Source: Deltaproteobacteria bacterium
GTDB taxonomy: Bacteria; Desulfobacterota; Desulfobaccia; Desulfobaccales; Desulfobaccaceae
DNA: 40,176 nucleotides
Direction of reading: 5' to 3'
NCBI GenBank assembly: GCA_019309545.1
Contig: JAFDGA010000022.1
Coordinates: 1 to 40,176 of the forward strand
Below the pieces are notes generated by a model, which was not told where the DNA came from, did not search any database, and saw only the letters and a list, made by a program, of their open reading frames with translations. The position numbers and the translations under genes were made by a program. Shown in pieces: positions 900-22,955 of the stretch (position 1 is the first letter of the stretch; the number at the start of each line of letters is the position of its first letter).

Positions 900-1003
900 A
901 TGCAAAGACAAGGGATTCTCCTTTTATTGGTTTTAATAGTTTTTGGAGGTTGTGAGATGGGAGAAATTCAGGAAATATGGGTAGGCAACAATTTTGGCGT
1001 CCC
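900..1003 (+). other. Out-of-frame lipoprotein signal peptide of the beta-helix gene
   Basis: An ATG after AGAGGG opens a segment beginning MQRQGILLLLVLIVFGGC, a typical bacterial lipoprotein signal: short polar N-terminus, hydrophobic core and a lipobox ending in GGC. Translation continues to about WVGNNFG and would then need a -1 shift near 990-1001 to join the downstream frame at PTIQDAV. The other frame has a TGA at 953-955 and no signal sequence. I therefore infer that this is the original N-terminus, separated by a one-base deletion or a sequence error. Confidence 0.6.
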
Positions 1004-3358
1004 ACCATACAGGATGCGGTCAGAACCATTGACTCGGATAAGGTCATCCTCGGTATCCCCCCCGGAATTTATACCATTGACAGCGATTATACCATTCCAA
1101 GCAATATAACCCTAAGAGTGGAGCGCGGCGCGACCATCAACGTCCATGAGGGAGTCACATTAAATATCGATGGTGGGCTTATTGCGGGTCCTTACCAGTT
1201 CTTCGCCGGGTCTGGAAAGGTAGCTTTTGGCGGGGTTACCGAGATCTATTCTGCCTGGTGGGGGAGCCCGGATTGGAAGACTCCGGAAGGCAATGTTACT
1301 GCGCCGCCAGGGTCCCGTTATATCAAGTGCAATGGGACTGCCCCGCTGTACTATCTGAAGGATAGTGGGACGGGAAATACTGGCTGGGTTGCCGTTGGCA
1401 GTGGTGGAGGCGGAGTCGATAAATTTCTCGAGTTAAGCGACGCACCTTCGACCTATACCGGCCAGGCGGGGAATGCACTTAAGGTTAATGCTGCCGAGAC
1501 CGGGTTAGAGTGGGATGATCATTCCAGCAATACAAATAACCCCCACAGGGTTACCAAGGCTCAAATCGGTTTGAGCTCGGTGACGAATCATCGTCAACTC
1601 AAAAGAGGTTCTAACGACTTTAAAAAATTTGCCGAGAAAACCAGCCCGGCGCAGACGGACGTAATCCTCATTGAGGATAGCGCTGCAAAGTACGCCAAGA
1701 AGAAGGTTCAGATCGGCAATTTGCCTACTGGGAGTGGAGTTGAGAAGTTTATCGAGTTACGCGACGCCCCGGCAACCTATACCGGCCAGGCGGGGAAAGC
1801 ACTTAAGGTTAAGACTGATGAATCAGGTCTGGAGTTCGTCGAATCTGGCAGCGGCGCTTCTACTTTTGCCGGACTGACTGACACTCACGACTCATATTCT
1901 GGCCAGGCCGGCAAGCTTCCAGTTATTAATGCCAGCGAGACCGCCTTGGAATTCAAGGATGCCATAGACGCCAATGCCCGCCTCAAGGTGCTCCGGGAGG
2001 GCGTTCTGAAAGGAACCCGGCGAGGGATTAATTTTCATGCTGGCTCCGGCTGTTCCCTAACTGTAACCGATTATGCTGCTGAAGAGCAGGTTGACGTGAT
2101 CATAGGGCTTGCCGGAGGCGGCGGAACTTGCTTTAACAGTTGGTATGATGTGAAACGAGACTATGGCGCAGTAGGTGATGGGGTTACAGATGACAAAACA
2201 GCGATCCAAAACGCCATTGATGCGGCTGGCAATGCCGGTGGGGGTGTAGTTTGGCTGCCTAAGGGAACTTATCAGATAAGCGGCCCGCTGACCTTGAAAT
2301 CAAATATTTTACTTAAAGGAGTCGGACAGGATGCTACCAGAATCCGAATGAAGGCGGATGCTGGAGCAGTCAGCAGTTTGATTTACGGCGGCTCAGTGTC
2401 ATCCTTTGCCATTGAAGGTATGACACTCGACAACCAGGCTTCGACCCAGACATATACAGGAATGGATTGCATCTATCTGGATACATGCGAGTTCTTTCGG
2501 CTATGCGATTTGGAAATTGTCAATGTTCCAGATGTTGGGGTTTATCTAAAAAAATGCACTAATGGCCATCTTAGTCGTTGTTATTTGTATGAGTGTGGAC
2601 ATACGGATGTATCACAGTATAACGCTGGTGTGGTTATAACAGGTCCGGATTTTAACAATATGAGCGAATACATATTTTTGGATGGCTGTAGTGCTGTAAA
2701 CTGCGCTGATGAATCAGGTGGTAATAAATGGGAAGGTGCTGGATTTTATGCCCACCTATGCAGCCGCAATATATTTTTCAGTAACTGTGTTGTTTTAAAC
2801 AGCCGCAAGCATGGGTTTAAACTCCAAGGCAAACGAATCCGGTTATCCAACTGTACTACAATTGATGTAGTCGGCTTTGCTTTTTCATGTCAGCTAACTG
2901 ACATACTGGGCACCAATCTATCGGTAAGATGCCCGACAGTTTCGACTTATCAAGGATTTGAGATTTATAACAATCCTTACGCAGAAACTACGGATGATTA
3001 TACTATGTGTCTTTTCAATATTGAAGTTATTGGTGCTCAAAAAGGTATATCGATAATGGGTAAGGGGCATGGCTCAATTGACGCAGTAGCCAAGAATATA
3101 AGTTTATATAATTTTTCAATCCGGGAGTGCACAACTACTGCGTTAGCCATAGACGGGCAATGTGAAGATATTAATATAACCAATGGACACTTAATTGACA
3201 ATTCCGGGGTTATAGGGTTGTATATCCATCCTTCCGGTGGTTATTATCCTAACAGAATATTTGTTGATAATGTTGTTTCTCGGAACAATCAGCAGGGTAT
3301 GAATCAATGCCTCAAGCGATATTATAAAAGGAAATTGGAAATGTTATTCTTTAGTTGA
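977..3358 (+). CDS. Tailspike-like beta-helix protein (pectate lyase 3-like fold)
   Basis: The 793 codons show three parts. Residues 1-140 contain short beta-rich sequence. Residues about 147-326 hold three related ~33-residue modules of the type seen in phage tail fibres, plus a NPHRVTKAQIGLSSV segment also typical of them. From residue ~390 (YDVKRDYGAVGDGVTDD) a right-handed parallel beta-helix of the pectate lyase 3/tailspike type begins. Such proteins bind or cleave polysaccharides, which fits the adjacent exopolysaccharide locus, but no catalytic residues can be assigned by eye. The ATG at 977 has a poor ribosome site; the real start is probably the lipoprotein ATG at 900 in another frame. 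The last ~20 residues (after NNQQG) look unnatural, and a +1 shift near 3297 would give a more helix-like end stopping near 3382. Confidence 0.75.
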   Translation: MGRQQFWRPTIQDAVRTIDSDKVILGIPPGIYTIDSDYTIPSNITLRVERGATINVHEGVTLNIDGGLIAGPYQFFAGSGKVAFGGVTEIYSAWWGSPDWKTPEGNVTAPPGSRYIKCNGTAPLYYLKDSGTGNTGWVAVGSGGGGVDKFLELSDAPSTYTGQAGNALKVNAAETGLEWDDHSSNTNNPHRVTKAQIGLSSVTNHRQLKRGSNDFKKFAEKTSPAQTDVILIEDSAAKYAKKKVQIGNLPTGSGVEKFIELRDAPATYTGQAGKALKVKTDESGLEFVESGSGASTFAGLTDTHDSYSGQAGKLPVINASETALEFKDAIDANARLKVLREGVLKGTRRGINFHAGSGCSLTVTDYAAEEQVDVIIGLAGGGGTCFNSWYDVKRDYGAVGDGVTDDKTAIQNAIDAAGNAGGGVVWLPKGTYQISGPLTLKSNILLKGVGQDATRIRMKADAGAVSSLIYGGSVSSFAIEGMTLDNQASTQTYTGMDCIYLDTCEFFRLCDLEIVNVPDVGVYLKKCTNGHLSRCYLYECGHTDVSQYNAGVVITGPDFNNMSEYIFLDGCSAVNCADESGGNKWEGAGFYAHLCSRNIFFSNCVVLNSRKHGFKLQGKRIRLSNCTTIDVVGFAFSCQLTDILGTNLSVRCPTVSTYQGFEIYNNPYAETTDDYTMCLFNIEVIGAQKGISIMGKGHGSIDAVAKNISLYNFSIRECTTTALAIDGQCEDINITNGHLIDNSGVIGLYIHPSGGYYPNRIFVDNVVSRNNQQGMNQCLKRYYKRKLEMLFFS
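1415..1954 (+). repeat. Three phage tail-fibre-like protein modules
   Basis: Repeats at 1415-1513, 1739-1837 and 1862-1954 encode the pattern F-[IL]-x-L-x-D-A-P-x-x-Y-x-G-Q-A-G-K-x-L-x-V-x-x-x-E-[ST]-x-L-E. The first two are close copies at DNA level, with a shared CCTATACCGGCCAGGCGGGG, and the third is diverged. They are in one reading frame and seem to be structural spacer repeats. Confidence 0.8.
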
Positions 3359-3417
3359 CCGTCCTGTAGTTTACCAGGATTAGGAAAAAAGGCTCGGTAA
3401 AACTCGTTAAAATCGTT

Positions 3418-3478: not shown

Positions 3479-4744
3479 CTAAAGATATTTTTGTAAGGGA
3501 GAATGTTGCGCTATGAGAGAAATTGGGTGTTTAGTTTTCAACAACTCCATATAATTTTGGAATAGAGCCTGCCAAATACTCTCAGGGCGGTAATCGTGTA
3601 AGACCCGCTGGCGGCCAGCCTTTCCCATCTGCTCTCGCAGTTCTTGGTTCAGCAACAGTTGTCTTAGGACTACCGCCAAGGCCGGGCCATTTTGAGGGGG
3701 CACCAAGAAACCTGTTACCTCATCTATTACGGCGTCCACGCTGCCATCCGCGTGGGTGGCGACCACCGGCAGCTCCATGGCCGCGGCCTCTAACAGAACA
3801 TTGGGGAAACCCTCCCGATAAGTGGGCAGTACCAAAATATCCATAGCCGCATAAGCCGATGCCATCTCTCTAAGACAACCGAGAAACCGTACTTTAGGAG
3901 TAGTTTTTAATCTATCCAATATTGCTCTTGGTACTGGATCTTGAGGTTCTTCCTGACCAATCAAAATGAGAAAAAGATCTGGAAACTCATTGGTTAAAGC
4001 TTGCCAGGCTTCGGTTAATTCCATGATCCCCTTATCTTTTACAATTCGTCCCACAAAACCCAAGACCACAGCTTCTTTGGGAATCTGATAACGCTCCCTG
4101 ATCACTTCTCTGGTGCCAGTTGGTAATCTTTGGGGATTAAATTTGACTTTGGCATCAACCCCGTTGCCGCTGCCGAATTTAATGACCTGAATTTTCTCTG
4201 GTTGACAGAGTCCTAAGGCTAGTGCTCTTTTTTTAATCGAGAAACTAACGGCAATAACCTGGTGGGCCATTTGACAGGCTAGTGTTTCTGAAAGCATAAG
4301 CAGTTTCCGCTTGATACCATTGGAGGTTATAAATCGTAAGCCACGCATCCCATAAATCACGACGGGCACGCCAGCCAGCCGCGCCGCCAGCACTCCAAGA
4401 AAACCTGCTTTGGGCGTATGGGCATGGACAATGGTAGGTTTTAATTGCCGGATAAGACGATATAGTTTGCCCAACGCCACCAGATCCTTTAAAGGAGTAA
4501 TGTAGCGCTGCATTTCAATGCCGTGAACAATCATGCCTTCTTGGAGTGCAGCTTGGTGAAGGGCTTCGCCTGGCGAAGCAACGCCATGAACTTCAAGGCC
4601 CTGATGCCTCATATAATTAGCCTGACCACGTAAAAAAAAGGCAAGGGATTCAGGGATGGTAGTAATATGAACCAGCTTCACAGCCTTGTCTAACTGATCA
4701 CCAAGAACATTGCTCATCGGTGGTCTCTTTGGTTTTGCAGCCAT
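3479..4744 (-). CDS. Glycosyltransferase family 4
   Basis: This is a GT-B fold retaining glycosyltransferase of 421 residues, the last gene of the exopolysaccharide locus. The N-terminal acceptor half contains LKPTIVHAHTPKAGFLG. The donor half has VLGFVGRIVKDKGI, LILIGQ and the E-x7-E motif in REGFPNVLLEAAAMELPVVAT, which contacts the nucleotide sugar. It probably adds one sugar to the lipid-linked repeat unit at the inner membrane face. Its start overlaps the preceding gene by 31 bases; an internal ATG at codon 10 (MSNVL) is a reasonable alternative. The sugar specificity cannot be read from sequence. Confidence 0.9.
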   Translation of the reverse strand: MAAKPKRPPMSNVLGDQLDKAVKLVHITTIPESLAFFLRGQANYMRHQGLEVHGVASPGEALHQAALQEGMIVHGIEMQRYITPLKDLVALGKLYRLIRQLKPTIVHAHTPKAGFLGVLAARLAGVPVVIYGMRGLRFITSNGIKRKLLMLSETLACQMAHQVIAVSFSIKKRALALGLCQPEKIQVIKFGSGNGVDAKVKFNPQRLPTGTREVIRERYQIPKEAVVLGFVGRIVKDKGIMELTEAWQALTNEFPDLFLILIGQEEPQDPVPRAILDRLKTTPKVRFLGCLREMASAYAAMDILVLPTYREGFPNVLLEAAAMELPVVATHADGSVDAVIDEVTGFLVPPQNGPALAVVLRQLLLNQELREQMGKAGRQRVLHDYRPESIWQALFQNYMELLKTKHPISLIAQHSPLQKYL

Positions 4745-5901
4745 TCTGAGGTCATCTCTTTTATATGGCGGTAGAATGCGATCCGCTTGGGTAACAGAAT
4801 ATCGATATGGTACTCTTTAGCTTTTTTAAGGTTACGGGCGGACATAAGAGCTTGGCGTTCCGGATCGATTGCCACCTCATAAATTTTGCGGGCCAGAGCG
4901 TCGACATCATTGGGAGGGAACAGGTCCTCGGGGGCAAGCAGTTCTGGGATGCCGCCTACTCTACTGGCAATACACGGCAGGGCTCGGGCCATGGCCTCGA
5001 GCAGGGCGCGGGGCAAACCTTCCATGCGGGAAGGCATGACAAAGAGATCCGCCTGATCCAACTGGAACCGGACCGCTTTTCCAGCCGGCAGCCTGCCAAG
5101 AAACCGGACCCGGTTGCCTAATCCCTGCATTGCCGCTCGAGCTTCTAAATCTAACCGATGCTTGCCATCACCAACAATGACCAGATGTATATCCAAACCA
5201 GCGCTGGCGCATTTGCTGACCGCGTCGATTAATATATCGGGACCCTTGTAGAGTTGGTTTAAACTCCCAACCTGAATGAGAGTAAAAGGTTCTAGGGTGG
5301 AGGGTGGGGGTCGGGGTGTGGAGACAAAGGCGCCATCAGAGAGCTCGACATCCGACACCCCCACAGAATAGGCCGGGCAAGGATAACGACGTTGGAGAGC
5401 CTGAGACGTGACATAAAGTGCTCCATTGGCCTCGCGGCAGAGACGTCTCAGTTGCAAGGGAGCCCACCAGCGCAAAAGCGGGCGTAAACAGTGTTTTATT
5501 GCACCAGGCGAAAAAGTATCGTAAGGGTCGGCTATTACTTCGACAGCAAAAGGGCGATTCTGGTTGCGAAGCTCTTGCCACACTAGCTCAGCCAGGTTAC
5601 CTTGTCTCAGGATGACGGCAGAGGGGATTGAACAGGCCAAATGAATTCTTTTTTTAAGTTCAACGAGACGCAAGAGATATTGCCAGGGACCGAGATATCC
5701 AGGTAAAGCAAAAAACGATACACTCGGCCCTGCTATTGGAATAGCGGAAGGATATTCTACAGCAAATAACCGCCCGATTACCGTAATAGAATCAAAAACC
5801 TGAAGATATCTTTCCCATAAAAGCTCAGAGGTCATACTCGGTGCAGCCGGTTGGCCATTGCAAAGAAAAAATTTCGTATCAACGACAACGGTACAATTCA
5901 T
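4714..5901 (-). CDS. Glycosyltransferase family 4
   Basis: A 395-residue GT4-type enzyme. The C-terminal half shows FTLIQVGSLNQLYKGPDILI, HLVIVGDGKHR, RFLGRLPAGKAV and RMEGLPRALLEAMARALPCIAS, the last holding the E-x7-E donor-binding motif. The N-terminal half is poorly conserved, as usual for the acceptor domain. It lies 11 bases after the upstream GT4 gene and overlaps the downstream one, so all three are probably one transcript. The likely role is sequential transfer of hexoses onto the undecaprenyl-linked unit; donor and acceptor are unknown. Confidence 0.9.
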   Translation of the reverse strand: MNCTVVVDTKFFLCNGQPAAPSMTSELLWERYLQVFDSITVIGRLFAVEYPSAIPIAGPSVSFFALPGYLGPWQYLLRLVELKKRIHLACSIPSAVILRQGNLAELVWQELRNQNRPFAVEVIADPYDTFSPGAIKHCLRPLLRWWAPLQLRRLCREANGALYVTSQALQRRYPCPAYSVGVSDVELSDGAFVSTPRPPPSTLEPFTLIQVGSLNQLYKGPDILIDAVSKCASAGLDIHLVIVGDGKHRLDLEARAAMQGLGNRVRFLGRLPAGKAVRFQLDQADLFVMPSRMEGLPRALLEAMARALPCIASRVGGIPELLAPEDLFPPNDVDALARKIYEVAIDPERQALMSARNLKKAKEYHIDILLPKRIAFYRHIKEMTSEWLQNQRDHR

Positions 5902-5912
5902 CTATAATATCC

Positions 5913-7034
5913 TCATTTCGAAAGTATTTTTGCGTATAAAGTTTGGTAATTAGAAATCATGATTTTGACATCATAGTTATCACACACGTTTTTTTTAGCA
6001 ACTGCCGCTAATTTATTTGCCTGTCCCGGATTTTTCAAAAGGTACGTAATCTTTTCTGCAAGGATGCCTGGATTTCCTGGTGGGATTAATAACCCTTCCA
6101 CCCCATCTTTGATAACATCGGGTATTCCGGCTATTTTAGTCGCCACTATAGGTTTTTCAGATGCCATTGCTTCCAGGAGGGCAATGGGTAGGCCCTCTTT
6201 AATGGAAGACATGACAAAGATATCCATTATTGCTAACATTTCTGGGATATCTGTTCTCGAACCGGTGAAGATAACCTTACCATTGAGGCCAAGTTCTGCT
6301 GCCTGGCTTTTTAAAATATCCTCCAGATGACCTCCACCCACGATTATAAATCTCACTTCAGGAATTTCTCTGGTAACTAGGGCTGCAGCTTCTAAAAGGT
6401 ACTTATGGCCTTTGGGTTCTACCAGACGACCAACTGTGCCAATGATTTTTACACCCTCGGGAATAGCCAGGCTGGTCTTTATGAGTGAGGTGTTAAACGG
6501 CCTGCTGAATCTGCTGACATCGACGCTATTATTTATACAAACAATTTTATCTGGCCTTACGCCTTGTTTGGCGAGCATGGCACACACTGCGGGAGTGACT
6601 CCCACGATTATACTATTCCTTCTCATAGAAAGAATGTCCACCAGCTTGTACAAAAAATTATTTTCTCTCCAAAAATCAATACTGGGCTCGGTGAATATAA
6701 TTGGTACTCCGGTCAGCAGGGAAGCCAGGGAACCCCAAAGATTAACTCTTGAACCATGGGCATGGATAAGATCTATTTTATTTTTCCTAATAAATTTAAT
6801 GAGTTTGGGGATTCTCACCACCCCCCATGCGCTTTTCAGACCAGGGAGATATTCCGTTTTAATCCCCAACTCTTCCACAGCAGGAATAATCTTGGACATA
6901 AAAGGGCCATATTCTCCGAAGACGATGAATTGGCAGAATTTTTTATCAAGATAGCGGGCCAAATATTTAATCATTTCCTCGGCCCCGCCTAAGTCTAAGG
7001 TGATACTTAACTGCAGAAGCTTAATTCTAGTCAT
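5913..7034 (-). CDS. Glycosyltransferase family 4
   Basis: A 373-residue GT4 enzyme that starts MTRIKLLQLSITLDLGGAEE, the glycine-rich first loop typical of this family. Further landmarks are LIHAHGSRVNLWG, IGTVGRLVEPKGHKYLL, FIIVGGGHLED, FTGSRTDIPEMLAIMDIFVMSS and the E-x7-E motif in KEGLPIALLEAMASEKPIVATKIAGIPD. It is more AT-rich than the two genes after it. It is separated from the polymerase gene by three bases, indicating cotranscription. Role: assembly of the exopolysaccharide repeat unit; sugar unknown. Confidence 0.92.
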   Translation of the reverse strand: MTRIKLLQLSITLDLGGAEEMIKYLARYLDKKFCQFIVFGEYGPFMSKIIPAVEELGIKTEYLPGLKSAWGVVRIPKLIKFIRKNKIDLIHAHGSRVNLWGSLASLLTGVPIIFTEPSIDFWRENNFLYKLVDILSMRRNSIIVGVTPAVCAMLAKQGVRPDKIVCINNSVDVSRFSRPFNTSLIKTSLAIPEGVKIIGTVGRLVEPKGHKYLLEAAALVTREIPEVRFIIVGGGHLEDILKSQAAELGLNGKVIFTGSRTDIPEMLAIMDIFVMSSIKEGLPIALLEAMASEKPIVATKIAGIPDVIKDGVEGLLIPPGNPGILAEKITYLLKNPGQANKLAAVAKKNVCDNYDVKIMISNYQTLYAKILSK

Positions 7035-7037
7035 CGT

Positions 7038-8306
7038 TTATGTCTTTCTTATTAATACAGAGGCTTCGTTTGCCAGAAAATTGCTATAGCGGCTAAGCGC
7101 TACGCCGATGATCAGCCATTCCGTATTTCCGGACAAGTCCAGACTTGCCAAGGCAAAACAGAATGCCGTGATAAAAAGAAATATTGCACCGAAATTATAT
7201 CTATCAACTTCCACTATTCTTTTGAACAGTTGGATGAATAGAAAGGCCATAAAGATTAGACCAACGATTCCTCCTTCTGCAAGAATTTCTATTATCAGAT
7301 TATGTGGATACCTATCGGGGGCCTTTGGATCATAAGATCCTCCCAAAGGTTCGAAATATCCGCCTAATCCTTTCCCCACTACAGGGTTGTTCTGAAAGAC
7401 CCTGAGCCCTAACTTTCCCAAATACATACGTCCTAAGACATTTTCGTCGGTTTTTATAGTACTTGACTCGGTTATTAAATTAAGATAGCGATATGAGGTC
7501 TCAGGCTTTAAGACCACAGGAGTTACAACAATTACTACTGTAATCATAAGTATTGCAACATATTTAATGATATATTTGCCCTTGTGGTAAAACATCATCA
7601 AGCATGATACACATAAGCCACAGAACAAGCCAATAATCGGGCCCCGAGACGCGGTCATGATTATTATAAATATGGCCGTAGCGATAACAAGACCTCTTGA
7701 AACCAGTCCAGTAGTTCCCCGCAGGCCAGAGAGGTTAGTCAAAGAAATAACTAGGGCCAGGACGCCCATTCGAGATACTTCAATAGGATTCAAACCCAAT
7801 ATAGTGGCTCTTTCCGAGCTAAGATCATCCTTCCAAAATAGTAACTCCGCAGCAACAATTAGAGCAATTATTTGAATGGCCAGGCCGAGATAATTTAAAG
7901 AACGGCTCTGAACTTTTGAAGTAAGCATAATCATGACCGGCAAAAATATTCGCATACCGAAAATCTCGAATTTTCTAATTCCATATTCTAGATTCGTAGT
8001 CCATAACAAAGAAAGCAAGAGATAGCCCACAAAACAGGCAAACGATGCAATGATAAGCCAATCAGGCGAAGATTCCCGGATTCGGGGATTACAAAGAAAT
8101 GCCAGAAGATGAATAAACGCCGGGATAAAAAGGAGGGTGAAATAGGGAATCTCAAAGTTTAAGATTTTAAAATAGACCAGTGGAAATATCAGATAGATAA
8201 AGCCGAGGAATAATAGCGGCACCGCTAACCAGACAATTTTTCCCCATAACTTAACGGTTAGGCTCAGCAGGACCAAAGCACTAAGTGTTAATGCTAGGTA
8301 GACCAT
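7038..8306 (-). CDS. wzy: O-antigen/exopolysaccharide polymerase (Wzy/WaaL-like)
   Basis: A 422-residue integral membrane protein with about 10-12 hydrophobic segments. The Wzy_C signature is visible: SRGPIIGLFCGL, then a large periplasmic loop containing GLGGYFEPLGG and YPHNLIIEILAEGGIVGLIF. In this family the loop arginines and histidine take part in joining lipid-linked glycan units in the periplasm. Placement between GT4 genes and near a Wzx flippase favours polymerase over ligase, but the two cannot be separated by sequence alone. Confidence 0.85.
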   Translation of the reverse strand: MVYLALTLSALVLLSLTVKLWGKIVWLAVPLLFLGFIYLIFPLVYFKILNFEIPYFTLLFIPAFIHLLAFLCNPRIRESSPDWLIIASFACFVGYLLLSLLWTTNLEYGIRKFEIFGMRIFLPVMIMLTSKVQSRSLNYLGLAIQIIALIVAAELLFWKDDLSSERATILGLNPIEVSRMGVLALVISLTNLSGLRGTTGLVSRGLVIATAIFIIIMTASRGPIIGLFCGLCVSCLMMFYHKGKYIIKYVAILMITVVIVVTPVVLKPETSYRYLNLITESSTIKTDENVLGRMYLGKLGLRVFQNNPVVGKGLGGYFEPLGGSYDPKAPDRYPHNLIIEILAEGGIVGLIFMAFLFIQLFKRIVEVDRYNFGAIFLFITAFCFALASLDLSGNTEWLIIGVALSRYSNFLANEASVLIRKT

Positions 8307-8342
8307 TTAATTCCCTTTTATGAGCATCTTAATTCTGGCCAG

Positions 8343-9458
8343 CTACTTTCCTTTGGTTGATGAACAGATCTCTTCCAAAAATTCAACCGTTTCCCTGGCC
8401 GCCACCCTCCACGATAGGTGCTGTTCAGCAAACTGACGCGCCTGCTCACCAAGCGAATGTCGATTTTCCCTGATAAGCTCATAAAATTCTTTTATCTCTA
8501 AGGAAAGCTGAGCAATGGTCGTATAACTGCCATTTGCAATAAAGGGCTGCGCCTCAGTTAAAATAGGATCTTTATGCCCCAGAAGGGTAGGCAAGCCGCA
8601 GGCTAAATAAGTCCTCGTCTTTAATGCTTGGGTTTCCTGCGTATTTTTGCGATATCCGGCTAAGGCACCAATACCGATATCCGCGGCGGAAAGGGTATGA
8701 GATAAATCTTCGGGAGGTTGCCAGGGGATGAGGCGGACTCGCGGTAGCACTTCTTTGGAGGCCATATTTTTAATCACACTAATCGGCAGATTTCCTACAA
8801 GCCACAAATAGAAATTTTGCAGCTCTGGGGTTTCCAGGCATTGGAGCAGAATATCAATCCCATGCCAGGGAGCCAGAGCGCCAATCATAACCAGGAGGGG
8901 TGCGTCAAGGGGGGTATCAAATTCTTGACGCAAGGATGGGTTATAGCCGTGAAAAACAAAAGAATCGATATCGACGCCATTCTTGGCCAGCAGGAAAGGC
9001 TTCTCTTTCTTGCCTGATCTGACGGCGTAGCGATAAATTTCTTCAGAAACTGCGGCAATCCCAGCCGCATGACTATAGATCCATGATTCAGTAACATAAC
9101 AGATGGCCAGATTAGCGAATCTGCGTTGTACCCAAAATTCTGGTAAAGTTTTAGTGTTCAACTCTACCACATAAGGAATCTTATGGCGGACAACCTCTTT
9201 AATACTAAATATGTCACCACTGCCAAAGCGGTAATAAATTATATCGGGATGAAACTCGTTGAGCACTTTTCGAGTTAACTTGGCCATCAGATATTTTCGC
9301 TTTATGACAGAGGCGAGGCCGGAATTATACTCGAGTGGACTGAGCAATTCAATTTCAAAGCCCTCATCTGCCAGGCCTTTAACCATTTGTTTTACATGAT
9401 CTCGCGCCCCACTTTTAGGACCTGCCATCGGGTAGCTTGTAAGATAAAGGACTTTCAT
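8343..9458 (-). CDS. Glycosyltransferase, GT4-like
   Basis: A 371-residue GT-B type protein beginning MKVLYLTSYPMAGPKSGARDHVKQMVKGLADEGF. The donor half contains PLLVMIGALAPWHGIDILL and LSAADIGIGALA. Unlike its neighbours it lacks a clear EGxP...E segment; the matching position reads QALKTRTYLACGLPTLLG, seen in more divergent members that fix K rather than the first E. It lies between the flippase and polymerase genes. The likely role is sugar transfer to the repeat unit; specificity is unknown. Confidence 0.85.
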   Translation of the reverse strand: MKVLYLTSYPMAGPKSGARDHVKQMVKGLADEGFEIELLSPLEYNSGLASVIKRKYLMAKLTRKVLNEFHPDIIYYRFGSGDIFSIKEVVRHKIPYVVELNTKTLPEFWVQRRFANLAICYVTESWIYSHAAGIAAVSEEIYRYAVRSGKKEKPFLLAKNGVDIDSFVFHGYNPSLRQEFDTPLDAPLLVMIGALAPWHGIDILLQCLETPELQNFYLWLVGNLPISVIKNMASKEVLPRVRLIPWQPPEDLSHTLSAADIGIGALAGYRKNTQETQALKTRTYLACGLPTLLGHKDPILTEAQPFIANGSYTTIAQLSLEIKEFYELIRENRHSLGEQARQFAEQHLSWRVAARETVEFLEEICSSTKGK

Positions 9459-9468
9459 TTATATTTTG

Positions 9469-10770
9469 CTATCCTCCTGTCTTTGCTTTTGGGACAGCTA
9501 AGGCATGCAAGTTTATAAAAAACAGCATGATATACATGACCGACATGATAACACTGTATACTAGAATAGCTAACAGGGGAGACCATTTGGCCTGGTAGGT
9601 GAGGTAGAGGCCGCCTGCAACCAGTATTAACCGCATTGCATCCCAGAACACTTGCCAACCCAATTTTTCCAAAACGTAAAGTGTCTGTGAAAGCGGAATC
9701 ATGACAAATTTAAGAAAAAACATCGGTGCCATGATCTGGACATATTTACCACTTTCCTCCCATACTGCCCCAAAAAAGAGTCCGAATATTTGGGCACCAA
9801 GTAAAACCAGTATCAAGGTAGGCAAGAGCGCCAGCAAAGAAAGTTTATTGACTATTTTCAGAAACAGTTTTTTTAAGTTATGAGGTTTCTCTCTGAAAAT
9901 GCTTGCCGCTTCGCCCAGGTAGACCTTAGCACTGGCCTGACTTAAGAGCCCTATCGGCCCATCGATCATCCGCTGACTGAGCATAAACCATCCTGCCACT
10001 TTGGGGCCATAAAAACTAGCCAGCAAAATGGTAGGCAATTGTAATCCCAAGACATTCATTAGACCAGAACCGGTTGCTATAATTGGAAACTTACGATACC
10101 GCCAGCCAGCCCACCTCATCCCTTTAAACGATATCTTTCTTAACGGTTCCTTATCCCTTTTAAACATTGAGAGAGCAAGAAAGCTATTACCACTAGCCCG
10201 TCCTACTATTTCCCCAATTAGAAGCCCAATTAGACCCTCATGCCATAGTCCTACTCCGATCTGAGTGCTAACCTGTCCAAAACTTCTGGTAACGTTGGTT
10301 CTGGCAAGCTGGACAAAAGACCCTTTTCTCACTGCCCAGTAAGTAAGTATTTGATATGAACCGCCGCCTAACAAACCTAGCGGTATCAGGTATAAAAATG
10401 GCTTCATTACCATCATATTAACCATATAACAAAGTTCAGTACCTAACAAGAACATAACCACTAACGTTAATAAGCTAATAAGTAATACAATTATAGATGA
10501 TAAAGCTAATATATTTGCTGCAGTACCGTCGTCATCAGGCAATGGAATGGCCATTTCATAGCGTAATGACACAATAATTACTAAAATTGATAAAATTGAC
10601 GCATATACTGCAAAGACGCCAAAATCACTAGGACTGTAAATACGAGTAATAATTGGGGAAGTTGTAATTACCAATAACTGTCCAAGTGCTGTCCCACTTA
10701 TTAGAACTAGAACATTAGCGGCAAAGCTCCCTTTTCGAGGAATTATTGCTTTGAGGGCTGAAATATTCAT
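9469..10770 (-). CDS. wzx: Polysaccharide flippase, Wzx/PST family
   Basis: A 433-residue protein with about 12 membrane segments and the PST/MOP entry sequence SPIITRIYSPSDFGVFAVY. Family members move undecaprenyl-diphosphate-linked oligosaccharide from the cytoplasmic to the periplasmic face before polymerisation. The gene is AT-rich compared with the dehydratase and kinase genes further upstream in the locus. About 660 bases holding an IS4 remnant separate it from the next upstream gene, so it may need its own promoter. Confidence 0.9.
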   Translation of the reverse strand: MNISALKAIIPRKGSFAANVLVLISGTALGQLLVITTSPIITRIYSPSDFGVFAVYASILSILVIIVSLRYEMAIPLPDDDGTAANILALSSIIVLLISLLTLVVMFLLGTELCYMVNMMVMKPFLYLIPLGLLGGGSYQILTYWAVRKGSFVQLARTNVTRSFGQVSTQIGVGLWHEGLIGLLIGEIVGRASGNSFLALSMFKRDKEPLRKISFKGMRWAGWRYRKFPIIATGSGLMNVLGLQLPTILLASFYGPKVAGWFMLSQRMIDGPIGLLSQASAKVYLGEAASIFREKPHNLKKLFLKIVNKLSLLALLPTLILVLLGAQIFGLFFGAVWEESGKYVQIMAPMFFLKFVMIPLSQTLYVLEKLGWQVFWDAMRLILVAGGLYLTYQAKWSPLLAILVYSVIMSVMYIMLFFINLHALAVPKAKTGG

Positions 10771-10967
10771 ACATTATTAACTTAACAAAATATCAATGGT
10801 CATACTTGGGTTGCTCCAACTATCAGGTCTTAAAAACTTAGCAGTAAGCGCAGTGCCGTCCGGTTAACGATACTTAAAAAGTGCCAGTAATAGTTAAGAA
10901 AATAGTCCCCATAACTGCCAATTATGTTATAATGTTTTAGCGAAAAAGCGAATAACCAAAAGGAGTT

Positions 10968-11316
10968 ATGGAGACTATGGCACATCTTGACACAATCTTG
11001 GGGCAAATGCTACAACTAGTACCGAGACATGTTTTGACCATATCGTTGCTCCCATTCCTGGGCAGGTCCGAAACCCAGAAAATTTTTATATTGGTCACAG
11101 TTTGGCGCCATGCTCTGCGCTCAGTTGAGTAGTCGCAAGAGTCTCAGAGATTTGGTGTTTAGTCTCAATCAACACGTCAAAAAACTGTATCACCTGGGCC
11201 AGTCCGCGGTGAAACGCTCTACCCTGACAGAAGCCAATGAACTACGTCCGGCCATTATTTTTGAAAAGGTTTATCACAAGTTATTGCACCGCTTATATGG
11301 CGAGATGACCCGCGGC
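10968..11316 (+). pseudogene. IS4-family transposase remnant (DUF4372-type N-terminus)
   Basis: Fragments in two or more frames rebuild the N-terminus of an IS4-group transposase. METMAHLDTILGQMLQLVPRH comes from the ATG at 10968. After a frame change, WSQFGAMLCAQLSSRKSLRDL (from about 11092) and KKLYHLGQSAVKRSTLTEANELR follow. A ribosome site (AAGGAG) and a TATAAT-like box lie upstream. Homology stops near 11316, so the catalytic DDE domain is missing. The remnant lies between the flippase and deacetylase genes, and shows that transposition has disturbed the locus. The flanking 10771-10967 and 11317-11428 show no gene. Confidence 0.75.
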
Positions 11317-11428
11317 GTAACCTTTGGGAGATCATCTGTCCTAAAAAACGCCCTCCGTCCTCGGCCAATAACCAAATTCCTTTACTCAATTTCTGTGCCG
11401 GACACTGATGCACTTCACTCAGGTCTGT

Positions 11429-12418
11429 TCAGGATGACAATCCTTGAGTCAATGGCATAGCGTTTAAACTGATCGTCTTCTGGGTTATGGCTTTGACATA
11501 TTCTTTCTGAGTTAAGTTGATGATCTCGCCTCGCCTTTGCCGTTGTTCAATTAGGTGCAAGATCTCTGCCAAGATCTCGTACATCCTGTTGCCAGTAATA
11601 AAATTATGAGGATGGGTGTATAGATGCACCACCCGGTTATTGCTAACTGCATCAGCAATAATGTTTTTCCATCGTTGAATAATCAGCGATGCCGGCATTT
11701 GCTTCTTTAAGCCATACAGCCAGGTTAGCACAAACCCTGAAGGTATCCGCACCAGAGTCTCGGCTGGCGGATGGGGCTGGGATTGTTGCTTGACATTTAA
11801 CTCGACGCACACATTTCGGATTTTGTCGAAATACTTTATCAACCGGTTGGTGGAGAGATTAGGTTTCAGGAAAACCTCTCGATAACCGATAAACCCAGCC
11901 CGTTTCAGTTCTTCCGTATAACCGATCATATTAATGGGATAAACAAAAGTCATCTCCGCTCGATTTCTAAAGCTGCTAATTCGCTGCAACGCCGCCATCT
12001 CCCGGAGGAACTCCTCCCGGCTGACAAAGAACTCGATTAAGGGAACATGGGTAAAGCCATGGGCGGCAATTTCATGCTGGCTCTCTTGGGCAACCAGCTT
12101 AAACGCCGTTGGATTTAACCAGCCCTCGAAGCATTGCAAGGCTGCCTCTTGTTTGAAGCTTTCCAACCATGATTTCCCATTTAACCATACATCCGCAAAG
12201 AGGTCCTGATGGGCAAAATATTCTTCTATTGACATAGTAAAAGCACCGACAAATGCAAAGGTCGCTTTGATGTTGTGGCGATCCAAGAGCTCAAGCAAGT
12301 GCTCATACGTTTTATTCAGGTTTGCGTTTGTTAAAGCGACCCGCAGACCATCGGAAAGATGATGGGAAATACCCCATTTGCCTTCACAATCGAATGAAAT
12401 GATAAAGGTCCCCGGCAT
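11429..12418 (-). CDS. Polysaccharide deacetylase (NodB-like, carbohydrate esterase 4)
   Basis: A 329-residue protein starting FIISFDCEGKWG, where the CE4 aspartate is kept and the second metal ligand position is Glu instead of Asp, as in several exopolysaccharide-linked members. The HGFTH segment (HEIAAHGFTH) supplies the two metal-binding histidines. FVYPINMIGY takes the place of the usual arginine motif. The likely role is removing N- or O-acetyl groups from the polysaccharide or a lipid-linked precursor. No signal peptide is seen, so it may act in the cytoplasm. The C-terminus lies about 110 bases from the IS4 remnant. Confidence 0.82.
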   Translation of the reverse strand: MPGTFIISFDCEGKWGISHHLSDGLRVALTNANLNKTYEHLLELLDRHNIKATFAFVGAFTMSIEEYFAHQDLFADVWLNGKSWLESFKQEAALQCFEGWLNPTAFKLVAQESQHEIAAHGFTHVPLIEFFVSREEFLREMAALQRISSFRNRAEMTFVYPINMIGYTEELKRAGFIGYREVFLKPNLSTNRLIKYFDKIRNVCVELNVKQQSQPHPPAETLVRIPSGFVLTWLYGLKKQMPASLIIQRWKNIIADAVSNNRVVHLYTHPHNFITGNRMYEILAEILHLIEQRQRRGEIINLTQKEYVKAITQKTISLNAMPLTQGLSS

Positions 12419-12606
12419 TTGTTAATTTCTTCTCTTTAGCTGTTCAAGTCAAAGAGCTATCCTCTGTAGTACTTTTTTCAGGCATCGGGCGTTTCTAATG
12501 TCTGTTTCATAGGGATAAAGTCTGAGGTCTTTGCAAAGACGGTCCTGAAATCCGGCAAAACATCTATGGTGGCCCTCATTGTCAAGACAAAAAATCGGTT
12601 AGTTTA

Positions 12607-12648
12607 TGTCACAGCGGGGGGTGACAATTGTGAACATAAGTTCTTATA
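12607..12648. promoter_or_regulatory. Dyad cluster upstream of the deacetylase gene
   Basis: The gene-free stretch 12419-12785 contains a perfect dyad TGTCAC-N8-GTGACA (12607-12626). Next to it is TGAACATAAGTTCTTAT (12631-12647), itself a GAAC-N4-GTTC dyad. A similar TGAAC-N5-GTTCTTAT occurs at 31333-31350, at nearly the same distance upstream of the export lipoprotein start. Operator function is a guess based on symmetry, position and recurrence. Confidence 0.35.
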
Positions 12649-12785
12649 TAATGTTAGTGGCAGAATCTTGTAGTCCAAGACCAGTTGGCCGCTGGCCGGT
12701 ATGCTCGGACCGTAAAGTTTGCATTTTTGAACCCCTTTCCGATCCCTACCTGTGCCTTAATACACTGTTTAAATTTTGGGGTCCA

Positions 12786-13871
12786 TTATATAGATTCATA
12801 GAACACTCGGATCGGCACCCGATACTCCGGGAAAAAATCTGAATCGTTGGCAGAGTTACCCCCGGCAGCCAGCCTTCGGGTTTTTAAGAATTGATAATAC
12901 TTTGTGTCGTGAATAACCTTACCTATGTAATAGTGAGTTTGGCACGGGGAAAAAGAGGCCTTGAACTTGAACAAAGTATCATTAGGCTGATATCCGCCCC
13001 CTAGATGGAAATATTTTATGCCACGACTCTTGGCCCAAAGCGCTACCTCGAAAAGTAAGAGATTATTAGCAGCCAGATGGCGCATTTCATAACTTGAACC
13101 AGCAAGAAAGTAATGTATAACAGTATCTGTAAATAGAAAAATCGACGAAGCAATTATCTCATTCTGGTATATACCATGAAATAAGGCCATATTATTATTT
13201 AGTAACTTAACCATAGCCTTAAACCAGTCTTTGGAAAAAAAATAATATTTATGGGCATTAACTCTATCCATAGTGGCATAGTAGAGGTTATAAAAAGCAT
13301 CTAAATTTGCAAATTTTTCATCATTTACTATAATTACCTTGTTTTTTTGTGCTTTTTTTACTGCGGCACGGCAGCCCTTGGTAAGCTGCTTCCATAAACC
13401 AGCTATACTTAAGGTAAGATCAATTACGACAGTGTCATTCCAGTGTTGAATGAATACCTTTTTGGGGGTGTAAGAATGATTTTTTAAAACCGGATTGAAG
13501 CGTATAAATTCTGAAACGATGCAGTTTTCCTTGCAATATTGATTAAATATATCAAAAAAGGCGTCCATATTAACTCTTTCACTGCTGCGTAAATACCCGC
13601 CGTAGCCATAAGGTGTGATTATATCTACGATATTGTTGGGAAGATCATTAAAAATAGGTATATTATTAATCTGTCTCGTTAGAAAAGGATTTAATACGAA
13701 ATCCTTATCTGTTTCGTAATATACAAAACAAGTGGCCTGACCATCCCCATTGAGTTCCCAGAGATAGGCATATTCTGGCGTAAAGAATATATCACAGCCT
13801 AAAAGATTACAAAGAGCTTCCCATTTCTGCCTCATGGGGACATCTTCCCAAGTAAGTATTTCATAGAACAT
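12786..13871 (-). CDS. FemAB/GNAT-like acyl- or aminoacyl-transferase
   Basis: A 361-residue protein with the double GNAT arrangement of the FemAB / Acetyltransf_6 (BioF2-like) group. Landmarks are LTKGCRAAVKKAQKNKV at the first domain, then ALFHGIYQNEIIASSIFLFTD and KYFHLGGGYQPNDTLFKFKASF near the C-terminus. Relatives move an acyl or aminoacyl group to an amine on cell-wall or capsule precursors. Its position after the ATP-grasp and DegT-like genes suggests it attaches a substituent made by that module. It is markedly AT-rich and has no clear ribosome site before the ATG, suggesting recent acquisition. Substrate unknown. Confidence 0.75.
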   Translation of the reverse strand: MFYEILTWEDVPMRQKWEALCNLLGCDIFFTPEYAYLWELNGDGQATCFVYYETDKDFVLNPFLTRQINNIPIFNDLPNNIVDIITPYGYGGYLRSSERVNMDAFFDIFNQYCKENCIVSEFIRFNPVLKNHSYTPKKVFIQHWNDTVVIDLTLSIAGLWKQLTKGCRAAVKKAQKNKVIIVNDEKFANLDAFYNLYYATMDRVNAHKYYFFSKDWFKAMVKLLNNNMALFHGIYQNEIIASSIFLFTDTVIHYFLAGSSYEMRHLAANNLLLFEVALWAKSRGIKYFHLGGGYQPNDTLFKFKASFSPCQTHYYIGKVIHDTKYYQFLKTRRLAAGGNSANDSDFFPEYRVPIRVFYESI

Positions 13872-13901
13872 TATATCAAGTTCCCCAAGGAATGCTTCTT
13901 T

Positions 13902-14022
13902 GAGCGTTAAGGTCTGCCATGACCCTAAACCAAACTCGCCGGCTAATAATTAGCCAGGGAAAGGGCTTAAATCATCCTTACCGCAAGGACAGGTACAGGG
14001 TTTATAGCTGATCTTAACGCTC
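13902..14022. repeat. 121-bp element with 10-bp terminal inverted repeats and nested dyads
   Basis: Perfect arms GAGCGTTAAG (13902-13911) and CTTAACGCTC (14013-14022) enclose further nested symmetry: TAAACC (13926-13931) with GGTTTA (13999-14004), and a central GGCTAAT-A-ATTAGCC (13941-13955). It fills most of the 185-base gap between the FemAB-like and DegT-like genes. It could be a small non-autonomous mobile element or a structured transcript segment. No clear target duplication is visible. Confidence 0.45.
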
Positions 14023-14056
14023 CATGGAGTTTTAATACCCAGTCAGCCGGGTCGGT

Positions 14057-15154
14057 TTAATCACTGTATTCCTCACCATACTTACGGATGAGTGCAATAA
14101 CGTATTCCATGTCAGCCTCAGTATAACGCAGGTCACAATGAATGGTGAGCATTCGCTGACTGAAATCAATATCCACTTGAGGGATTTCCTTGGTGGCCGA
14201 CTCCTCAAAGGGCCACAGGATAGTAGGATAGATTCTGGCCGCGATTAATTTTTGGCTTAGGTGGGATCGCCGCTCGGGGGAGTCCACCACCAGAATTGCG
14301 GCATAAGGACAGGTGTCCGCGTCGGTTACCGGTTGCAACACTTTAACCCAGGGTAAATCCGCCAATCCGGCCGAGACTATTCCATGGTTCCGGCGTCGAC
14401 GTTCTCGCCAGATTTCTATTGGAAAAGTTGGAAAAACATTGGCTGACCAACTCGTCATCCCCGATACTTTACCGATGGCGCAGCCAGTGCGCAGCGAATC
14501 CTCGCCGGAAACCGCCAGACCGCGAAAGTTATCCTTCTCAATCGGGTAATCTTCCAGATACAAAGTCTTAAGCGCCATGGCAGCTAATTTCTCCAGGGCA
14601 ACGACTTGGTGCTCAGGAGTTACCGGCAAGGCGGGAGGCAGGGGATGGCCGGCCGGTGACCATAAGAGCCCTCCGTCAGGTACCGGAAGGGTCTTCCGGA
14701 GGTGGACCACACACCAGTCGGCGTCGCTGGTCCAGGCCCATTTCGAGCAGGGGTCATGGAAGTGGTCTTCGACCACTTCCATCTGGCTGCGGTCAAGTGC
14801 CCCCATGTCAGGTTTGGCGCGCAGTCCGAATAGATTGGTCACGAATAAGACATCACCCGGTTTCGGTTCGATTTTGTCTAATTGAGGCCCGGACTCCCAT
14901 GGGTGGTCAGGATATAATTTCACCTCCATTAAGGGAGTGAAACAGAAGATACAGGCTTGGCAGAAATAGCTGGGAACCCAGAGTCGTCGCCAACCGCGGT
15001 TAGCGCGGCCATATTCCATCAATGCCCGTAACGCCTGCCGTCCTGAACCGTAAAGCGAATGGTTATCCCCCCAAGGCATGGGTGAGACAGTACTAGGCCA
15101 AGAGGTAAGCAAATGGAAATGCGAACCATGTTCCCAATTTTTAGCAAAGGTCAT
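14057..15154 (-). CDS. DegT/DnrJ/EryC1-like PLP-dependent protein, copy 1
   Basis: A 365-residue divergent member of the DegT aspartate-aminotransferase fold. SLYGSGRQALRAL (residues 34-46) matches the usual SGRAAL helix. VVED (Asp130) matches the aspartate that pairs with the PLP ring nitrogen, and LRKTLPVPDGG contains the presumed Schiff-base lysine Lys154. ATG 15154 follows AAGGAG by 10 bases. It is a tandem paralogue of the next gene upstream. It probably transaminates a keto sugar or related intermediate for the exopolysaccharide, but the family resemblance is remote and another PLP reaction is possible. Confidence 0.75.
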   Translation of the reverse strand: MTFAKNWEHGSHFHLLTSWPSTVSPMPWGDNHSLYGSGRQALRALMEYGRANRGWRRLWVPSYFCQACIFCFTPLMEVKLYPDHPWESGPQLDKIEPKPGDVLFVTNLFGLRAKPDMGALDRSQMEVVEDHFHDPCSKWAWTSDADWCVVHLRKTLPVPDGGLLWSPAGHPLPPALPVTPEHQVVALEKLAAMALKTLYLEDYPIEKDNFRGLAVSGEDSLRTGCAIGKVSGMTSWSANVFPTFPIEIWRERRRRNHGIVSAGLADLPWVKVLQPVTDADTCPYAAILVVDSPERRSHLSQKLIAARIYPTILWPFEESATKEIPQVDIDFSQRMLTIHCDLRYTEADMEYVIALIRKYGEEYSD

Positions 15155-15271
15155 TGCACCGGTTCTCCTTGTTACATATTAAGAATAATATCTTCCAACC
15201 TTGGATAACTTACTCTTGCTTTTACTGAATTATAATGATTTGGAGGCCAACACCTGGACAAGGGTTTACCT

Positions 15272-16510
15272 TTAGCCATTACCATACTCGCGGATAAGGT
15301 AACTAACATATTCCATGTCAGCCCTGCCATACCGCAGGTCACAATGGATCGAGAGCATCCGTTGACTAAAATCTAAATCTTCAGGAGATATTCCCTTGAC
15401 CACCGGTTCATCTAGGGGCCAAAGAATAGCAGGATAAACCTGCGCCGCCATTAATTTTTGGCGCACCCGGGCTCGCCGCTCGGGGGAGTCGAAAACTAAA
15501 ATCCCGGAAAACGGAAAGGTAGTTAAGTTATCCTCCGGTTGCAGCACCTCCACCCATGGTAGGTCCGCCAAACCGGCAGAAAGTATCTGATGGTTGAGGC
15601 GCCTTTGTTGTCGCCATATTTCCATTGGGAAAGTCGTAAATAGACAGGAGGTCCATTTTAGCATTCCTGATGGCTCACCTGTGCCGATATGCCCCTCCCC
15701 CAAGATCGCCAAATGCCGAAATTTTTCTTTCTCAATCGGATGACCGTTAAGATACAGAGCCTTTAGTGTCATGGCGGCCAACTTCTTTAATGAAGAAACC
15801 TGGTGCTCGGACGTAAGCGGCACTGCCGGAGGGAGTGAATGTCCGGCTGGTGACCAGAGGATACCCCCATCCGGTAGGGGGAGGGTCTTCCTCAGGGAGG
15901 CCACACACCAGTCAGCGTCGCTGCTCCAGGCCCATTTTGAACCAAGGTCATGCGAGTGATTTTCAATGATCTCAATTAAGCCGCGGTCGATTTCCGGCAT
16001 CGGTGGTCTGGCTCGCAGCCCGAAAAAATTCATCAGAAGCAACACATCCCCAGGTCTGAATCCAAATTGGCCCAAGTCGGGCTTCGAGTTCCAGGGAGAA
16101 TCAGGATATAATTTTAGCTCGATTCCTGTGGTTAGCAGAGCGGCCACCACAATTTGGCAGAAATAGCTTGGTATCCACAGGCGCTGCCAACCGCGGTGAG
16201 CCTGGCCAAACCTTATCAAGGTCTGTAAGGCCTGCCGGCCAGAACCATAAGACGAATACTTTTGCCCCCAAGGCTTAGGTGAGTCAGATCTGGGCCAGGA
16301 TAACATCAAGTGAAACTCTGAGCCCTGCTCCCATCTATCAGAGGGGAAAAGCATATGCTGGGTATGAAGAAACTTGCGCTCCATTACATAATCATTACCC
16401 TTTAAGACGCCTTTTGCCACTCCTCCTGGCCAGCAGGGAGGCCGTTTTTTCCTATTTCCAGGGAAACTGCTGGCAACCACATCATGGCCATATTTGCCAA
16501 GCCCTATCAT
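15272..16510 (-). CDS. DegT/DnrJ/EryC1-like PLP-dependent protein, copy 2
   Basis: This is a close paralogue of the following gene over ~350 residues; WGxxxSxYGSGRQAL, RLWxPSYFCQ and SSDADWCVxxLRKTL match in both. The lysine is kept (Lys208), but the expected PLP-ring aspartate is Asn184 (IIEN instead of VVED), which may weaken or change activity. The ATG at 16510 overlaps the ATP-grasp stop as ATGA, suggesting translational coupling. However, the first 42-52 residues have no counterpart in the paralogue, so starts at 16384 (MERKF) or 16354 (MLFPSD) are also likely. Pairing as a heterodimer with copy 1 is possible. Confidence 0.75.
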   Translation of the reverse strand: MIGLGKYGHDVVASSFPGNRKKRPPCWPGGVAKGVLKGNDYVMERKFLHTQHMLFPSDRWEQGSEFHLMLSWPRSDSPKPWGQKYSSYGSGRQALQTLIRFGQAHRGWQRLWIPSYFCQIVVAALLTTGIELKLYPDSPWNSKPDLGQFGFRPGDVLLLMNFFGLRARPPMPEIDRGLIEIIENHSHDLGSKWAWSSDADWCVASLRKTLPLPDGGILWSPAGHSLPPAVPLTSEHQVSSLKKLAAMTLKALYLNGHPIEKEKFRHLAILGEGHIGTGEPSGMLKWTSCLFTTFPMEIWRQQRRLNHQILSAGLADLPWVEVLQPEDNLTTFPFSGILVFDSPERRARVRQKLMAAQVYPAILWPLDEPVVKGISPEDLDFSQRMLSIHCDLRYGRADMEYVSYLIREYGNG

Positions 16511-17598
16511 TGCAATGGCTTAGCTGAGCTTTTCCCTTGACTTTCAATTGTTGGGCATTGAATTATGGAGGCAGTCGGACGTCTCAGCCGGCCGTAGCCT
16601 GAGGCCGGTAATTCTAAAGCAGTGTGATTAAGATACACTTCATCCCAATACCGTAGGACAATTCCTAATTTTACCTGTGGCTGTTCCAGTTCCTCCTGAA
16701 AGATTAAATCGCGGATGGCCATTTCCGGTTCATTAAAGCCCATGACGGCTCGCATTATAGTGGTAGAGGAGCAGCGGGGGTTTATCTCGAAAATCGAGAG
16801 ACAGCCTTTGTGCCGCCTTAGTTGGAAATTACAGGGACCAAGCGGCCTTAACTTGCCGGCTACTTTTTCGCAGTAGTCAGAGATTTCCGGATAATCAGCA
16901 AAGATGGCGCGGTAAGTTAATCCCGCCGTCAATTCCCGCTTGCTGACAATGCTACCGACCACTCTGCCCTTACGGTCGACATAGATTCCCACCGTATATT
17001 CCTCTTTTTCCTCAGGGAGCCACTCTTGGACGACTGCATCTTCTAAATATTGTTGGAAGAATTTGAGCTCATGCTGATTGCGGACCAAGACCGTGCCTTT
17101 AGAACCGGAGGCGCGCCTCGGCTTGAGGAAAAGCGGGAAACCGAACTTGTTGACCAAGGCCTTGACCCCGTGTTCATCACTGGCAAGGGTAGTTTCAGGG
17201 CAAAGGAAACCGTGACGGGTAAGGAGCTCGGTCATCTGCCATTTGTCCATACATGCGGTCATGATCTCCGGGGCACTGATCACGAAACAGGTACGAGTAT
17301 AGTTCTCAACCACATCAAGATGATTGGTTAAAAATCGAAGTTCAGGTTCTGACCCAATGAAGGCAATATCAATTTTTTCATCCTCGCATAGGCTTACCAA
17401 TTTATCCATATAAGTGGGATCAGATGCCGGGGGCACAATATATGCCTCATCAGACAAGAAAAAACCAGCCGAAAGGGGGTTCATGTCGGTCGAGATGAGG
17501 CGTATAGCCAATGACGATTGTCGCAAGGCCTTAACAATTGTAACCCCACCGGGTGAACCAACCCCGGTCACTAAAACTGTTACTTTTTTTGTATGCAT
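16507..17598 (-). CDS. ATP-grasp ligase (carbamoyl-phosphate synthase-like)
   Basis: A 363-residue ATP-grasp enzyme. An N-terminal pre-ATP-grasp Rossmann part (VLVTGVGSPGGVTIVKAL) is followed by MDKWQMTELLTRHGFLCPET, the nucleotide-binding FPLFLKPRRASGSKGT, VVQEWLPEEKEEYTVG and the metal-binding FEINPRCSS. Such enzymes activate a carboxylate as acyl phosphate and join it to an amine. It overlaps the PHP gene by 19 bases and shares an ATGA with the DegT-like gene, so the three are tightly coupled. An amide-forming step on an exopolysaccharide building block is the best guess; substrates are unknown. Confidence 0.85.
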   Translation of the reverse strand: MHTKKVTVLVTGVGSPGGVTIVKALRQSSLAIRLISTDMNPLSAGFFLSDEAYIVPPASDPTYMDKLVSLCEDEKIDIAFIGSEPELRFLTNHLDVVENYTRTCFVISAPEIMTACMDKWQMTELLTRHGFLCPETTLASDEHGVKALVNKFGFPLFLKPRRASGSKGTVLVRNQHELKFFQQYLEDAVVQEWLPEEKEEYTVGIYVDRKGRVVGSIVSKRELTAGLTYRAIFADYPEISDYCEKVAGKLRPLGPCNFQLRRHKGCLSIFEINPRCSSTTIMRAVMGFNEPEMAIRDLIFQEELEQPQVKLGIVLRYWDEVYLNHTALELPASGYGRLRRPTASIIQCPTIESQGKSSAKPLQ

Positions 17599-18335: not shown

Positions 18336-18381
18336 TCTAGCAAACTCCTCTTTGGATGTGTTAAACTTTGGACATTTTAGT

Positions 18382-20138: not shown

Positions 20139-20222
20139 TTTTATTTATCCCTCCCATTAAGTTGTCGCTTCGCATATACCGAGCCAAAGTAAACATTATT
20201 TAATAAAATAGCCTACAATTTT

Positions 20223-21164: not shown

Positions 21165-21186
21165 AGTAATCCTTATAACACGGTTA

Positions 21187-21819: not shown

Positions 21820-21852
21820 AGAACCTTATCCCGTATCACGTTTACAAACCGT

Positions 21853-22620: not shown

Positions 22621-22623
22621 CCT

Positions 22624-22683: not shown

Positions 22684-22712
22684 TTGGTCAAAGACTTCTA
22701 ACCTTAGAAGAG

Positions 22713-22943: not shown

Positions 22944-22955
22944 AAATAAGCTCCT

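Follow-up and report, generated by a model that had tools for sequence, protein, structure and literature searches.

Intact members of a family of tailspike-like proteins encoded in Desulfobacterota have about an even chance of being exported proteins that act on the surface polysaccharide of their own producer. In the proposed mechanism, a Sec-type N-terminal signal, recognized by motif, would carry a phage-type cap and a right-handed beta-helix out of the cytoplasm. The exported beta-helix would then bind, and most likely cleave or edit, the surface polysaccharide made by the products of the neighboring genes. The N-terminal part would swap between virion-type modules and signal sequences with the polysaccharide-recognizing body being kept, so that the same body could be used on a phage tail as well as in a polysaccharide locus. 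This reading draws on the anatomy of the genes, the in-frame signals of the relatives, the genomic contexts, and a same-genome pair (L071/L072); export, trimerisation, catalysis, and the substrate are predicted from them. One copy lies in the window, the whole contig analyzed here (G000:C22, 40,176 bp), which belongs to a genome of 2.43 Mb in 96 contigs.

The body of the window gene is an open reading frame of 793 aa on the forward strand (977-3358), whose ATG at 977 is an internal or alternative start. It contains both a tailspike-type cap and a right-handed beta-helix. The cap domain (1004..1276, +; TIQDAV...IPSNITLRVERGA...SAWWG) is matched by profile A2 with an E of 1.9e-33, the window sequence being among the rows of this profile, and the same cap is present in the tailspikes of viral contigs. 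The cap is followed by three copies of a tail-fibre spacer unit of 32-33 aa (1415..1513, 1739..1837, and 1859..1954, all +), each with matches to PHROG tail or virion families and to tail proteins of Caulobacter phages; the giant phages of Caulobacter carry the same spacers in their tail proteins at 31-35% identity. The pectate-lyase-like beta-helix (2147..3306, +) is recognized by Pfam (PF12708/PF13229), with Pect-lyase_RHGA_epim at E 1.9e-17 and Beta_helix at 8e-7, and the rhamnogalacturonase/epimerase-type pectate-lyase match starts at aa 391 of the body. PHROG returns 40 families at E<=1, the best of them mostly tail or tailspike families (3e-21, 5e-19), and these matches, tail spikes on the beta-helix among them, cover the beta-helix and the spacer region (spacers at aa 136-326). 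Sequence matches of the beta-helix in the PDB include mannuronan epimerases, the Sf6 tailspike, and a carrageenase. No N-terminal virion-binding (head-binding) module was found in the window gene, in which the signal frame is followed by the cap. The search of 395 genomes of the phylum gave no close relative of the window beta-helix (aa 391-793) beyond its first ~90 residues, and no second copy of the gene was found in its own genome.

The signal-sequence frame (MQRQGILLLLVLIVFGGCEMGEIQEIWVGNNFGV; 900..1001, +) lies upstream of the body, directly after a GAGGG ribosome-site-like stretch, within an open reading frame (900-1109) whose frame differs from that of the body. Its hydropathy is 3.20; signal-bearing relatives score 2.17-3.38, and nine signal-less ones at most 1.67. 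The stretch EIQEIWVGNN aligns with LGKEIWVGDP of the relatives, immediately before the cap, with a score of 26, which is reached by 7 of the 52,997 10-mers in the six frames of the window. The relatives run continuously across the point at which the frame changes in the window copy (1001..1004, +). The assignment of the signal frame to the same gene as the body is therefore supported by the EIWVG match, by a hydropathy in the signal-bearing range, and by the in-frame signals of the relatives. Past ~3307, the best reading is found in a frame other than that of the body, with a stop at 3379-3381; the probable natural C-terminus (3307..3381, +; NASSDIIKGNWKCYSLVDRPVVYQD and then the stop) was read directly and is proposed on its beta-helix-like sequence.

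The sequence-only reading had placed at 900-3382 a lipoprotein signal joined to a tailspike-like body with tail-fibre spacers. The spacers and the tailspike-type beta-helix are confirmed by Pfam, PHROG, and the three spacer copies. These positions do not form a single frame, because both the signal frame and the C-terminal stretch differ from the frame of the body; as judged within the window, the gene is frame-broken or mis-assembled. The joining of signal and body holds by homology and by the relatives, in which the two are joined in frame, and fails in the window copy, where the signal is off frame. The cysteine of FGGC fits a loose lipobox, again in the frame off the body. Since the sites in the relatives are mostly AxA-type and resemble signal-peptidase-I sites, the lipoprotein character is not conserved and may, with some uncertainty, be specific to the window copy rather than a family trait.

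The neighbors of the tailspike-like gene in the window are polysaccharide genes. A group 1 glycosyltransferase (3479..4744, -) is 57% identical to the glycosyltransferase that adjoins a phage-like ORF in another locus of the same genus (L030). It is followed by the polysaccharide locus (4714..31108, -), which encodes glycosyltransferases, a Wzy_C protein, a flippase-like Polysacc_synt_3, two Bac_transf, a DegT aminotransferase, Polysacc_synt_2, Wzz/AAA, and Poly_export. The exopolysaccharide locus claimed beforehand is thus real, spans 27 kb, and is convergent with the ORF 977-3358. The claimed absence of phage genes is likewise upheld, as the 40,176-bp window showed no phage structural genes; what is left of the C-terminal part of a group II intron maturase (2-451, +) is located at the contig end, and an Rfam search of positions 1-4000 gave no match, the intron included. 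Inside the polysaccharide locus, two tandem ketoacyl-ACP synthase III-like genes are situated beside a short-chain dehydrogenase (22956-25102, -). Toward the other end of the contig, the ammonium transporter gene amtB (38217-39958, +) shows a mid-gene frame change, and its second half continues into the gene of a TorF-like outer-membrane protein, a run-on that is possibly an assembly error or a real fusion.

Relatives from the same order are encoded in one frame, which starts with a signal-like N-terminus and continues, in most of them, with a 'YKPxLGARG' module, 'KEIWVGDP', and the cap; the YKP module is absent from the window copy. In the window's order, 15 of the 29 genomes contain members matched by a profile built on the signal, the YKP module, and the cap. 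The cap-only profile finds them in 14 of the 395 sampled genomes of the phylum, and in 12 of 141 genomes of the order of G304. The family occurs in one Desulfobacterota order, probably Desulfobaccales, and is scattered in others. Members assigned to polysaccharide loci comprise the window copy and L018, L021, L028, L066, L068, L071, L073, L095, L096, L117, L118, L119, L120, L124, and L125, the contexts being read by ORF and family search and several of the loci classed by eye from ORF starts. An export signal is present in frame in all 15 scorable relatives at polysaccharide loci, as called by hydropathy and motif, with an internal start codon having to be chosen for some of the 15. The proposed search for lipobox-bearing homologues near polysaccharide loci thus yields signal-bearing relatives, whose signals are mostly of the signal-peptidase-I rather than the lipoprotein type, and the closest relatives are not all prophage tail genes. 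Proximity of cap genes to sugar-transferase genes exceeds expectation about tenfold: with the window excluded, 7 of 36 have a Bac_transf gene at a distance of up to 10 kb, where 0.68 would be expected (P ~5e-6 by simulation), and 8 have one within 20 kb, where the expectation is 1.37. No signal is seen in L032, nor in L030 and L067, two short ORFs in polysaccharide loci that were not scored as full cap proteins. The latter (L067:9971-11522) is a truncated member followed by a transposase-like ORF on the opposite strand. Another observation concerns L121 (4598-6646, +), in which a signal-like N-terminus immediately precedes a phage-type N-terminal module (GGKAYFYDAGSTTLKPV...); the surroundings showed no phage genes. 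The bodies are highly diverse across the family, and no catalytic residues could be identified across them.

Contrary to expectation, signal-like N-termini are common on the Desulfobacterota prophage copies: they are called in 7 of 9 copies in prophage operons (L019, L033, L069, L094, L122, L123, L126), the other two being L072 and L116. Unlike the window copy, L019, L033, L069, L072, L094, L116, and L123 are encoded among phage structural genes. L019 is located between head and tail genes, with the terminase, portal, and major head protein nearby, and L094 occurs with terminase and portal. L033 lies downstream of the tape-measure gene and two further genes; L069 shares two of the neighbor families of L033, its own start overlapping the stop of the tail gene upstream. 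L126 is placed between a fibre-like ORF and an endolysin, and L122 adjoins a fibre-like ORF, its phage context resting on the similarity to L126 and on ORF reading. L123 is accompanied by portal, major head, and internal virion proteins and has an Mtd-like sequence after its signal. Directly upstream of this spike, in a podovirus-like prophage, two fibre-like ORFs with signal-like N-termini are found (L123:10032-10712 and 10898-11920, -). Close to the signal-less L072 are genes for a tail fibre and virion structural proteins, and close to L116, equally without a signal, genes for a terminase and a tail protein. On free viral contigs, a scan with L069 showed a signal on none of 5 related spikes; viral contigs yielded no relative when the window protein, the YKP+cap profile, the window spacers, L072, L123, or L122 served as the query, and the N-terminal parts of L069 and L094 had no informative match among annotated phages. 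With signals present on prophage copies, a signal alone is not diagnostic of capture or domestication, and readings based on conversion, exclusion, or late attachment open up.

The exchange of N-terminal parts is illustrated by two members of one genome (G028), L071 and L072, which share 52.6% identity across 701 aa and are set apart chiefly by their N-termini. L071 bears a signal and belongs to a locus with a glycosyltransferase, a GDP-mannose dehydratase, and Bac_transf, and L072 starts with a phage-type module, without a signal, in a phage structural locus. Such a pair is what a capture would be expected to leave behind. In a second genome (G007), L018, beside a Wzz-like gene, and the prophage copy L033 group together in the cap tree at 93/95 support. 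Throughout this tree, phage and polysaccharide-locus members are intermixed and most branches are weak; genes may have moved between phage and polysaccharide loci in either direction. The suggestion of a captured phage domain consequently stands in part: the occurrence of the family in both prophages and polysaccharide loci and the L071/L072 pair speak for it, and the signals on 7 of 9 prophage copies weaken the signal as a mark of capture.

A single-sequence AlphaFold2 model of the window beta-helix alone reached a pLDDT of 37 and was set aside. The model of L071, built with ten sequences, has a mean pLDDT of 55.5, with residues 65-270 mostly at 70-90. Its best Foldseek matches are mainly phage tailspikes, and VIA-align gives Z 19.7 with the Sf6 tailspike (rmsd 3.7, 320 aligned), Z 19.4 with PfbA (rmsd 3.7-4.0 over 300-320 residues), and Z 17.9 with the EPS lyase RbmB (rmsd 4.0, 301 aligned). 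Because of the low mean pLDDT, these matches mainly support a tailspike-like beta-helix, not an activity.

The family resembles phage tailspike depolymerases, such as Sf6 gp14 and the tailspikes of Acinetobacter phages, in the order of the cap and the Pect-lyase-type right-handed beta-helix, in the tail-fibre spacers, and in the fold matches of L071. It departs from them in that the polysaccharide-locus members carry an export signal instead of a virion-binding head and that the window copy has no surrounding phage genes. The function is likened, by analogy, to that of RbmB of Vibrio, which degrades the biofilm polysaccharide of its own producer (PMC11637428): RbmB is a signal-bearing beta-helix protein, as the polysaccharide-locus relatives are by the signal call, and the same role is predicted for the present family. 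The likeness is drawn from the fold of L071 rather than from sequence, and the RbmB paper makes no mention of phage or tailspike parts. The prophage relatives recall lambda Lom, whose gene lies between tail genes and is expressed in lysogens and whose product is exported to the outer membrane (PMC12309495), in being putatively exported proteins encoded among phage tail genes; Lom itself is an outer-membrane beta-barrel of unrelated fold. The best PDB sequence matches to the start of the beta-helix are the mannuronan C5-epimerases (Poly(beta-D-mannuronate) C5 epimerases 4 and 6), yet the match spans only ~100 residues of the window protein.

Several points count against an exported protein that acts on its producer's polysaccharide: the window copy is not continuous, the signals are called by hydropathy and motif, the L071 model has a low mean pLDDT, the bodies are highly diverse, L030, L067, and L032 lack a signal, and prophage copies bear signals too. 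The discontinuity could mean that the window copy has no function and is the decaying residue of a prophage or mobile segment, which is a weighty possibility, if short of probable. Two frame changes within 2.4 kb, the maturase remnant next door, the loss of the YKP module relative to the relatives, and the truncated relatives L067 and L030 would agree with such decay. However, the body otherwise stays open for 793 codons, and amtB at the other contig end is frame-changed as well, which makes sequence error toward the contig ends a reasonable alternative; the maturase remnant (2-451) agrees just as well with decay. A start at 977, which would yield a cytoplasmic protein and make the upstream hydrophobic frame a product of chance, is improbable. 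The ATG opens the body frame behind an AGGA-like site, as would suit a gene that, like L032, L030, and L067, lacks a signal, but the hydropathy of the upstream frame matches that of signal-bearing relatives and the frame ends in the family motif EIWVG.

The main functional rival concerns the signals in prophages. Exported tailspike relatives could shield the cell from phages by stripping or occupying the polysaccharide receptor (superinfection exclusion, lysogenic conversion), with prophages bringing the genes and polysaccharide loci keeping them. Signal-bearing copies inside structural operons, the overlap of the L069 start with the upstream tail gene, the precedent of lambda Lom (PMC12309495), and the single recognition body shared by the L071/L072 twins are in line with this reading, which is nevertheless unlikely, as genes placed last in tail operons would probably be expressed late rather than in the lysogen, and many copies adjoin no prophage. 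The signal-bearing prophage spikes could also be real virion parts, exported before lysis and joining the virions outside the cytoplasm. The assembly of tailed phages is understood to be cytoplasmic, which, together with the absence of signals on two of the nine prophage copies and on all five spikes of free viral contigs, renders late attachment a slim prospect, even though L033 and L069 occupy the tailspike slot after the tail genes and their signal is followed by a retained phage N-terminal module, and L123 combines its Mtd-like sequence with two further signal-bearing fibre-like genes. The exported, self-directed protein and its rivals are in part answers to separate questions, and their probabilities do not have to add up to one.

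Tailspikes, EPS lyases, and exported prophage proteins are each already known, and no description of signal-bearing tailspikes or tailspikes domesticated in polysaccharide loci was found in the literature searched, in which subscription journals are poorly covered. A wider scenario, offered as a speculative proposal that is more doubtful than probable, holds that Desulfobacterota phages often put export signals on the spikes of their structural operons and that hosts repeatedly moved these into polysaccharide loci to trim or mask the phage receptor, with one shared pool of polysaccharide-recognizing bodies fitted with interchangeable heads, for the virion or for export. It is customary to regard phage depolymerases and bacterial EPS lyases as two distinct pools; with one cap family present on both sides, and two members of a single genome told apart by their heads, exchange between the pools can be tested directly. 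The export signals on spike-like proteins in prophage operons conflict with the usual view of cytoplasmic tailspike assembly and point to an unrecognized role in conversion, exclusion, or polysaccharide turnover. Taken from sequence, the family suggests that bacteria and their phages may use exported tailspike-like proteins on cell-surface sugars.
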